Below, in pieces: positions 9,282 to 42,488 of a stretch of DNA of 64,000 bases (position 1 is its first letter; each line of letters starts with the position of its first letter). Position numbers and translations under genes: made by a program. The DNA lies in NCBI RefSeq assembly GCF_016097555.1, contig NC_054708.1:1492382-1556381 (forward strand). Direction: 5' to 3'. Origin of the DNA: Gigantopelta aegis. Its lineage: Eukaryota > Mollusca > Gastropoda > Neomphalida > Peltospiridae. The notes below the pieces were generated by a model. It was not told the origin of the DNA and searched no databases. It was given only the letters and a program-made list of their open reading frames with translations.

Positions 9282-9321
9282 TACGGAGAGCGAAAGCTGT
9301 GGTTTATTGCGGTGGAGGCAT
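9282..9321 (+). pseudogene. Partial copy of the start of WDR47 exon A (copy 1)
   Basis: After the acceptor TATTTGACAG, about 40 bases resemble the first 40 of exon A (TACGGAGAGCGAAAGC versus TATGGAGAGCGCAAAC; both continue to GGTGGAGGCA). The sequence then falls back into array sequence (ATAAAACAGACATTG). It lies exactly 172 bp upstream of the second copy. Confidence 0.85.
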
Positions 9322-9453
9322 TATAAAACAGACATTGTATGATAACCAGTATATGTGTATTTGACAGTATGATAACATTGTGTAATAACCAGTATGTGTG
9401 TATTTGACAGTATGATAACATTGTGTAATAACCAGTATGTATGTATTTGACAG

Positions 9454-40600: not shown

Positions 40601-42488
40601 GACGGTCATCTACGTCGGGTCAGCGGCCATGTTGATCATCGGCTGGATGCTCAAAAAAAAGTATGCTTATACTAAGTCTAGTTCTAATAGAGGTTTTGTT
40701 AGTTGATGCTCAAGAAGAAATATGCTTGTACTAAGTCTAGTTCTGATAGAGGTTTTTGTTCTTTGACGTGTGGATTCTGTCTGGGTACCCACTTTCAACT
40801 ATTTCAATTAATAAAAGAACCCACACGAATTACACAGAATTAATTTTGAATTTCTTTCACCTTTTTGTAGTGACCATTCTCCTGTTGTACTTTACTTTGG
40901 TTCTAAACACCCAGGTAATAAAACCCCCAAATATTCCAAACAACTATTTGAGATCATCCTTTTGATGATAGGCCATCGGTCCACAGGCTGGTAGGTACTG
41001 GGTTCGGATCCCAGTCGAGGCATGGGATTTTTAATCCAGATACCGACTCCAAACCCTGAGTGAGTGCTCCGCAAGGCTCAGTGGGTAGGTGTAAACCACT
41101 TGCACAGACCAGTGATCCATAACTGGTTCAACAAAGGCCATGGTTTTTGCTATCCTGCCTGTGGGAAGCGCAAATAAAAGATCCCTTGCTGCTAATCGGA
41201 AGAGTAGCCCATGTAGTGTCGACAGTGGGTTTCCTCTCAAAATCCGTGTGGTCCTTAACCATATGTCTGACGCCATATAACTGTAAAATAAAATGTGTTC
41301 AGTGCATCGTTAAATAAAACATTTCTTTCTTTTTTCCTTTTGATGATATTAATGGGTTTAAAACATTCCTTTCAGACTTTAATCAGGGTAATTTGTTTTA
41401 TCCGAGTCAGTTGATGCAATAAGGTCATCTAACAAATTGTATATTCAATACAGCCAAAATGTTTATTCCATGTAAAGTTGTTACACATCGACCTAATGAT
41501 AAACCCTTCATGAATGGAAATAATATTGGACACAAATAATTCCTTGCAACTACTTTTAAGTTTTAATTTTATGCAGCTATGCTGTGTAGTTTAAAGTGCA
41601 CCTTGTCCATGTGTATTGAGATTAACATAATGTGTTTATTTTTCCAGATACCATTTGAAAGATGATGTCCGTCAGTCGCTGTACGACGCTGGCAATGAAT
41701 GGACTGCAGCAGTCGGACAGGACAAGTTTCTAGGTGGAGACAAGCCCAATCTTGCTGATCTGGTATGATGTCAATCATTAAATGTCATATAACCTTTTTA
41801 TACAAATAATCTTATTTTCAAATTTGATTCCAGTATTTAAAAAGATACCCTATTTTGCTGTAAAAATAAACATTTTGGACAGTAATGCTTATCGGTTAAT
41901 GTAAAAGCCAGGTATGATATATATACCACATATAAACGTACACAAGTTGTGTCAGCTTGATATTAAAACATTTCACTTCCATTTATTTAGTACTGTTCCA
42001 CTAGTACATCCAGATAAATTCATTCTTGTTGTCTGCTTAATATAGAAACATTTCACTTTTATTTATTTTCGCACTGCCACCCTTACGTCCGACGTCTTAA
42101 CCACTAAACTACTGATGCAAGTGTGTATATATATCAAAACATTCATCAAGTCATTCTTAAATATGTTGACTGAATGTTTCATTTATTTGATTTTTCATTT
42201 TGATATAAAATAAAAAGCAGAAATTATGGGGTTTAAAAAGAAAAAATTGTGCAGATTTATTTTATTTCGTGTTTATTGTAACTTGCCATTAGTAATAGTG
42301 TTACTCAGTTTTGTAACATTCTGTTACACTTTGTTTTCTTCTAGTCTGTGTATGGAACTCTACATGCTATTGAAGGGTGTGAGGCGTTCGAGGACTTGCT
42401 GAATAACACACAGATTGGAAGATGGTATTTTCGAACCAAGGAGGCAGTCACATCGCACGCTGGAGCCAATATGAAAATAACAGATTGA
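37386..42488 (+). CDS. PTGES2: PTGES2, membrane-associated prostaglandin E synthase 2, six exons
   Basis: Exons 37386-37679, 38268-38483, 39029-39228, 40448-40660, 41648-41762 and 42345-42488 encode 393 aa (human about 377). All junctions are GT-AG with matching phases. Residues 1-58 are basic and mitochondrial-presequence-like; 59-78 form a hydrophobic segment. A glutaredoxin-like fold carries CPFC (Cys118/Cys121) and [11 protein letters not shown]; then [14 protein letters not shown] and the C-terminal GST-like helices with [20 protein letters not shown] and [18 protein letters not shown]. The family isomerises PGH2 to PGE2 with thiols, or degrades PGH2 when heme-bound. The start is the first ATG of ATGGCGGCG in a favourable context. 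A candidate poly(A) signal AATAAA lies at 43917, which would place a SINE and a minisatellite in the 3' UTR. It is convergent with BBLN. Short duplications copy the ends of exons 2 and 4. Confidence 0.95.
37712..37788 (+). mobile_element. SINE tail fragment in PTGES2 intron 1
   Basis: CATCCAATAGCTGATGATTA, CAATGTGCTCTAGTGGTATC and GTTAAACAACAATTTAAAAA match the tail of the SINEs at 44982 and 36026; the 5' part is missing. The rest of intron 1 (to 38267) has only a G/C homopolymer stretch at about 38015-38041. Confidence 0.75.
38268..38483 (+). CDS. PTGES2: PTGES2 exon 2 (CPFC exon)
   Basis: Acceptor TTGTTTTAG, donor TTG|GTAAGT. Encodes [20 protein letters not shown] and [10 protein letters not shown], then [20 protein letters not shown]. 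Confidence 0.95.
38492..38582 (+). repeat. Duplicated end of PTGES2 exon 2 with its donor
   Basis: After the true donor (38484) the sequence AAGTACTGAAAGGTTCCCGT, CCTGGTGAGTCGGAGAGGAT and GGATTCTTG|GTAAGTAAA repeats the last ~50 bp of exon 2 and its donor (second GTAAGT at 38544), lacking TGTGCGATG-like bases. A third partial start (AAGTACCGAAAGGTTCCCGT) follows. Confidence 0.88.
39029..39228 (+). CDS. PTGES2: PTGES2 exon 3
   Basis: Acceptor TTTTTTCAG, donor GAAG|GTATTA, exits with two bases of a codon. Encodes [20 protein letters not shown] and [20 protein letters not shown]. Confidence 0.93.
39237..39717. mobile_element. Foldback MITE starting 8 bp after the exon 3 donor
   Basis: The left arm AGTCCAAACCAAATTGTTAG, AAATTACTCTCCTACCTTTA and ATTACCGTTAGATTT is mirrored at 39640-39717 (AAATCTAATGGCAATTAAAG, ACAATTTGGTTCAGACT). 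Inner inverted pairs include TGGAATACTCTTCAAG/CTTGAAGAGTATTCCA and TGCATAGGGCAAAGTAC-like sequences, so the whole 481 bp can fold back. Confidence 0.85.
39725..39940. repeat. ~40-bp tandem repeat, about five copies
   Basis: Unit contains AATATAAAGAAGACATTAGC and TAATTTTAAGACAATCTA. It begins just after the MITE. Confidence 0.85.
39960..40195. repeat. ~55-bp tandem repeat, about four copies
   Basis: Unit contains GAGTACTGCCACCACAGCTG, TCAAGTCATCACTTCATCTA and AAACAT. Confidence 0.87.
40448..40660 (+). CDS. PTGES2: PTGES2 exon 4
   Basis: Acceptor TATTTTCAG; completes AG|C then [20 protein letters not shown] and [15 protein letters not shown]. Ends in an A-run at AAAAAAAA|GTATGC. The last part ([18 protein letters not shown]) is hydrophobic. 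Confidence 0.93.
40699..40762 (+). repeat. Duplicated end of PTGES2 exon 4
   Basis: GATGCTCAAGAAGAAATATG followed by ACTAAGTCTAGTTCTGATAG repeats the exon 4 end and first intron bases (GATGCTCAAAAAAAAGTATG, ACTAAGTCTAGTTCTAATAG) about 60 bp downstream. In the copy the donor GT reads AT. Confidence 0.85.
40971..41335 (+). mobile_element. SINE in PTGES2 intron 4, 5'-truncated
   Basis: Begins at GGCCATCGGTCCACAGGCTG, carries GGTTCGGATCC and AATAAAAGATCCCTTGCTGC, and ends GCATCGTTAAATAAAACATT. A 13-bp target duplication CCTTTTGATGATA lies at 40958-40970 and 41336-41348. It is close in sequence to the SINEs at 31126 and 52023. Confidence 0.93.
41648..41762 (+). CDS. PTGES2: PTGES2 exon 5
   Basis: Acceptor TTTTTCCAG; AA|A then [20 protein letters not shown] and [10 protein letters not shown]. 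Donor CTG|GTATGA, phase 0. Confidence 0.93.
42345..42488 (+). CDS. PTGES2: PTGES2 exon 6 (terminal)
   Basis: Acceptor TTTTCTTCTAG. Encodes [20 protein letters not shown], then [10 protein letters not shown], and ends MKITD followed by TGA. Confidence 0.93.
   Translation, partial: SVYGTLHAIEGCEAFEDLLNNTQIGRWYFRTKEAVTSHAGANMKITD

Follow-up and report, generated by a model that had tools for sequence, protein, structure and literature searches.

Tandem duplications spanning splice junctions in the gastropod Gigantopelta aegis and their likeness to the mirages of amphioxus

Are tandem duplications started at the edges of exons, or do they only come into view there? The question is raised by two genes in a window of 64,000 nucleotides of Gigantopelta aegis (the window is the whole stretch of DNA that was analysed, and coordinates refer to it unless a contig is named). 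The exons of both genes were reconstructed, with every joint in frame and a clean translation:

9626-25499, WD40 half of a WDR47-like gene, 6 exons rebuilt
37386-42488, PTGES2, 6 exons rebuilt

The PTGES2 product matches PDB 1z9h, i.e. prostaglandin E synthase 2 (E 5e-87). In the product of the other gene, WD40 repeats were the sole thing detected by domain and structure searches. Hence, its name comes from the original prediction, which was made from the letters of the DNA; WDR47 is used here as an assumption. Arrays detected by TRF cover much of the first 24 kb of the window and are fewer beyond. We measured local repeats as 30-mers matched in at least 24/30 bases by a copy offset by 10-250 bp, excluding simple repeats. 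Their occupancy, by blocks of 8 kb, drops from 46% and 56% in the first two blocks (16 kb) to 0% in the last, so that proneness to arrays shifts over tens of kilobases. Around the WDR47 exons, ~46% of the sampled intron positions are in local repeats (794/1719, including the array upstream of exon A), and the value for PTGES2 is ~14% (49/343). The array units of the window have diverged from one another (74-96% identity).

The repeats at the junctions of the two genes, with the exons that they touch, are these:

6984..9673, + strand, 50-bp minisatellite with 172-bp higher-order copies (TRF rows 6984-9028, 9141-9280 and 9137-9673)
9626..9783, + strand, WDR47 exon A; its acceptor is the last array copy (25/30 at -172)
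10574..10746, + strand, 25-26-bp array (TRF), ending 3 bases inside exon C (start 10744)
10744..10914, + strand, WDR47 exon C; the next array has the donor after 10914 as its first copy
10897..11937, + strand, 38-bp array at the exon C donor (TRF); the unit joins the last 18 bases of the exon to 20 of the intron
12342..14410, + strand, 40-bp array (TRF), beginning 10 bp past the exon D donor (exon end 12331)
15126..15225, + strand, exon E donor region (9 exon and 91 intron bases), with a 78% copy at 18967-19066 (BLAST)
38461..38582, + strand, 60-bp duplication of the end of PTGES2 exon 2 and its donor (TRF; 29/30 at +60)
40646..40756, + strand, 59-bp duplication of the end of PTGES2 exon 4 (26/30 at +59)

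The original prediction named seven junctions as duplicated or as lying inside or at the edge of tandem copies, and copies were confirmed at or near all seven, in differing forms. Four are strict duplications, at the threshold of 24/30: the acceptor of WDR47 exon A, the donor of exon C, and the donors of PTGES2 exons 2 and 4. Two are array edges under that threshold, namely the exon C acceptor (18/30) and the exon D donor (17/30), which adjoins its array. The last, the exon E donor, has its junction-bearing copy 3.84 kb downstream (78% identical); a second copy of the region (18853-18950, 77%) holds intron bases only. In the strict test, the 17/21 junctions of the window other than the four strict ones score 14-18 of 30. 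A Mutator-like transposase fragment (16332-17171, - strand), a weak match below the family cut-off, separates the exon E donor region from its copies.

The array before exon A terminates ~48 bp inside the exon, and the acceptor-like TTTGACAG occurs in it many times. Two extra copies of the acceptor itself are present, at -172, where 48 exon bases align, and at -344, where 39 do. By a general splice matrix, 48 AG sites upstream equal or surpass the real acceptor in score. At the exon C donor (27/30), a 26-mer region has 24 copies at a minimum of 19/26, the real donor counted, and 17 GT sites downstream score at least as high as the real one. The copy of the PTGES2 exon 4 donor has its GT mutated to AT and retains no GT. 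When PTGES2 is aligned with the solved protein of PDB 1z9h, the exon 2/3 joint is aligned with single-residue gaps only, and no repeat-sized insert appears there.

Repeats occur elsewhere in the window as well. A clean 60-bp GC-rich array lies between the two genes (33312-34283, TRF). An open frame of 613 codons at 4901-6742 (+ strand) encodes about eleven 13-residue repeats, corresponding to a 39-bp coding minisatellite (TRF 5140-5597). Close to its end the frame has a hydrophobic stretch, and it has no Pfam match. By eye, a dispersed element shares a common tract at ~31130, 41000 and 52150, in both orientations; we presume it to be akin to the tRNA-derived SINEs of molluscs. The exon at 60540-60752 (+ strand), which resembles the start of a UAP56/DDX39B RNA helicase, gives no Pfam match with its 71 residues.

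It had been argued that seven such junctions are hard to see as chance. In a stretch this dense in arrays, they are not in themselves so, since the strict rate of the window does not exceed the local density of arrays. Strict matches concern 2/11 junctions in WDR47, which is no surprise given that ~46% of its sampled intron positions are in copies, and 2/10 in PTGES2, against a local occupancy of ~14%.

We also sampled junctions elsewhere in the genome (1.149 Gb in 5216 contigs), on contigs C1-C15 (35-121 Mb). The sample consists of 154 exons of kinesin, myosin and P-type ATPase genes, which were obtained by family searches and chosen regardless of arrays. For kinesins, 88/124 places were typed, 2 were dropped for stops, 86 were used and 8 were added later. 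Myosins contributed 25 and 22 of 80 places, and P-type ATPases 13/14. Most of the places that lie on small unplaced contigs were excluded; many of them have stops. Junctions were called in this one assembly with a general splice matrix, which gave 149 donors and 149 acceptors (10/308 junctions were uncallable). Related exons were all counted, including L115 with L116 and two neighbouring ATPase genes on C6. The donors of L124 and L132 were re-placed by hand: the first, previously counted, then scored 22/30 and was no longer counted, the second still is, and the extents of both were left out.

Strict duplications were found at 11/149 donors and 2/149 acceptors (Fisher p 0.02). This is a donor rate of about 1 in 14 (95% interval 3.7-12.8%). 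Moving the threshold from 22 to 26 gives 10-13 donors and 1-4 acceptors. Among the loci fetched after the donor bias was first seen, the counts are 4/20 and 0/20 (p 0.053). A control with reversed flanks gave 0/298 matches, against 13/298 for the real junctions, and random probes compared with other loci gave 12/5879. In the strict matches the best copy is on the intron side, with positive offsets in 11 donors and negative ones in 2 acceptors. The first offsets are 38-105 bp for 14 strict donors, window included. The cases are spread over 10/59 sampled gene clusters. For example, a kinesin (L079) repeats a 105-bp unit in register, including 48 exon bases and GTAAGT, another (L135) has a 56-bp unit with 7 further copies, and a myosin (L083) has an 80-bp unit. 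The prediction that the units contain the splice site together with exon bases thus holds in the window and extends to unrelated genes of the genome. The window has the higher strict rate (4/21 versus 13/298, p 0.012), in a comparison made post hoc.

We call these junction duplications mirages, after the amphioxus structures discussed below. At junctions other than the mirages themselves, intron occupancy by arrays is 19.8% in genes with a mirage (45 junctions) and 5.6% in other genes (240 junctions; p 0.001), and the mirages have a weak tendency to cluster within genes (p 0.048). For a possible subtelomeric effect, the correlation of array occupancy with the relative distance from the chromosome end is rho -0.10 (p 0.08). 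One myosin cluster (C1:27.05-27.08 Mb; L090, L118 and L109) has three junction duplications, two at donors and one at an acceptor, in 10 junctions. The acceptors of L119 and L097 look duplicated and fall below 24/30, so they were not counted; a donor match in L108 (23/30), also below 24/30, was judged a chance match internal to the exon. In L097 (C5:3246119), the start of a myosin exon is duplicated 177 bp upstream with 81 exon bases, and this could be an alternative exon instead of a mirage.

Where do the units come from? We searched the 1.15 Gb for other places of three of them, those of the exon A array, the exon C array and the PTGES2 exon 2 duplication, and found none among the best-scoring candidates. 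A mobile origin is thus unsupported, 3/3 searched units being at their own locus only among the candidates scored, and the arrays look home-made.

If duplications were seeded at junctions, repeats should be concentrated there. Occupancy on the donor side rises from the exon into the intron: 1.3% at -90..-60, 3.1% at -60..-30, 5.6% at -30..-15, 7.38% at -15..0, 7.40% at +1..15 and 9.3% at 30-60. It reaches 12.6% (1073/8522) in the intron 100-500 bp away, against 7.4% at the donor. On the acceptor side the values are 3.0% at -90..-60 and 1.6-2.0% closer in, with 1.3% for the junction and 6.8% for the intron at 100-500 bp. Compared with the intron, then, junctions are cold, donors by ~40% and acceptors about fivefold. 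There is no step at the donor: arrays that reach it extend further, petering out within some tens of bases of exon. The deeper exon bin of the acceptor profile exceeds the junction bin, perhaps because short exons bring their other end into view. The profile is best fitted by another suggestion of the original prediction, selection against arrays lying wholly within exons. The same prediction listed slippage at AGGT-type direct repeats among the possible causes, and this is contradicted by the extents of the units: in the 13 counted donor cases where these are usable (10 from the sample, 3 from the window), copying begins at a point 14-91 bp inside the exon, and the unit encloses the splice site.

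Exon edges might still be true hot spots, where breaks, R-loops, a GC/AT step, a nucleosome edge or short direct repeats shared by exon end and intron would start duplications more often than in the rest of the gene. On total occupancy we reject this as the main explanation, and we retain it as a rival for the ends of arrays. Exon-side array ends number 18 in 17.9 kb at -40..+20 and 59 in 121.6 kb at 40-450 bp, a 2.1-fold excess (p 0.008; p 0.001 in a permutation of pseudo-junctions within loci). Seeding at junctions thus has some support in the roughly twofold density of these ends, and none as the main cause, occupancy being lower than deep in the intron and unchanged across the donor. It is important to highlight that the interval -40..+20 was picked after an earlier look at mostly the same data, and the excess is for this reason a lead only. 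The preponderance of donors over acceptors, both overall and in the later loci, also speaks for a hot spot, but donor-side introns are richer in arrays generally (12.6% versus 6.8% at 100-500 bp), and conserved copies of exon sequence may just remain recognisable for longer. We regard it as unlikely that exon edges, donors above all, are real birthplaces of minisatellites and that thousands of introns are being lengthened by arrays of copied splice junctions. Were this true, the spliceosome would have to pick the exon-proximal site among many identical donors, and the arrays would be a standing reservoir of new exons and introns.

Many of the copied sites are strong. Downstream of the 11 sampled donors, 25/45 GT copies equal or surpass the true donor in score, and only 1/45 is usable in frame without a stop; in the window the corresponding values are 14/26 and 1/26. 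As nearly all of these donors are unusable, the first one must win nearly always, if the genes work. The cell presumably keeps using one original splice site among near-identical copies. The copies could alternatively be functional, as alternative donors or mini-exons that give protein variants or regulate splicing. The L079 unit, with an AG, a 48-nt piece of exon (a multiple of 3) and GTAAGT, is a potential in-frame mini-exon in several copies and would fit this idea. The single usable donor among 45 argues against it, as does the loss of GT in some arrays (L090 keeps it in 1/6 copies), and we consider a function very improbable. We give as little credit to an artefact of assembly, in which repeat-rich introns would have a collapsed, expanded or chimeric consensus. 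One amphioxus mirage does appear aberrantly assembled in a draft genome, according to the available text of PMC3087553. However, the copies in the window are diverged, the cases occur in 10/59 clusters with the best copies on the intron side, and the genome of Gigantopelta aegis is described as built from long reads with polishing (PMC7895826, in the part available).

We favour the reading that these structures are mirages, i.e. minisatellite-like tandem duplications whose extent happens to include an exon-intron boundary, arising by local duplication in array-prone genes and tolerated as long as the exon-proximal site is used. We give it a probability of roughly 0.7. The introns of some genes in this genome would be unusually prone to short tandem duplication, with units in the range of ~25-170 bp. 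Where such a duplication extends over a splice junction, the additional copies would fall on the intron side. The exon-proximal copy (the first donor or the last acceptor) would go on giving a normal mRNA and the rest would be intron. As a consequence, the duplication would be nearly neutral and free to expand into an array, lengthening the intron. Minisatellites gain copies by unequal exchange or slippage, and further copies may be added here in the same way. Duplications that reach far into the exon or upset the choice of acceptor would be purged by selection. Mirages could be rarer at acceptors because the copies precede the used site and may be met first, whereas donor copies lie behind it. 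The reading rests on the copies and their positions, their absence in the control, the single locus of the three units searched, and the array-rich introns of the same genes. The twofold excess of exon-side array ends counts against it, as indifference to junctions combined with purifying selection does not predict such an excess.

Mirages were originally described by Canestro 2002, as cited in later papers. In amphioxus, tandem units lie across the exon-intron boundaries of Adh3 and of the globins BflGb6 and BflGb9; one globin gene has 6 units in one haplotype and 3 in another, and splicing is reported undisturbed, by RT-PCR for the globins (PMC3087553, available passages). PGBD5 is a further case in a paper that mentions troponin C (PMC3902484), and troponin C, retinol dehydrogenase and presenilin are cited as mirage genes (PMC3087553; PMC3902484). 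In the same sources, as in the snail, units span the 5' or the 3' boundary and many but not all copies keep the AG or GT. Units of ~10-160 bp are given for amphioxus; the first offsets in the snail fit, and the 172-bp period at exon A lies a little beyond this range. Boundary-spanning units with exon bases, by which mirages are recognised, occur at 4 junctions of the window and 13/298 of the sample. By the features compared, the snail structures are thus of the same kind, as judged from sequence. They differ in being in a mollusc, spread over 10/59 sampled gene clusters and biased to donors, whereas the amphioxus genes were reported singly. The amphioxus cases come with splicing and haplotype evidence, and the snail cases are known here from one assembly.

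Two other systems are close. In the Rogers model of intron gain by tandem genomic duplication, with cases in potato RdRp and in Drosophila in the accounts available, coding sequence is duplicated together with splice signals and exon fragments turn intronic, as in the snail. However, the snail copies are inside an intron and their breakpoints are not at AGGT (14-91 bp into the exon). Ordinary intronic minisatellites share the unit size, divergence and local origin of the snail arrays, but the latter take in the splice site and exon bases. In the literature searched on molluscs, no mirage was reported among the matches listed, and the available parts of papers on earthworm metallothionein, Conus gene structure and gastropod hemocyanin do not describe junction copies.

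In the available text of PMC3087553 and PMC3902484, mirages are described from single amphioxus genes, and the snail would add a second animal lineage. With about 1 in 14 sampled donors in repeats, its genome would be a large natural experiment on proximal choice among identical 5' splice sites and on intron growth. Whether introns or exons are gained from such arrays would become testable as well.
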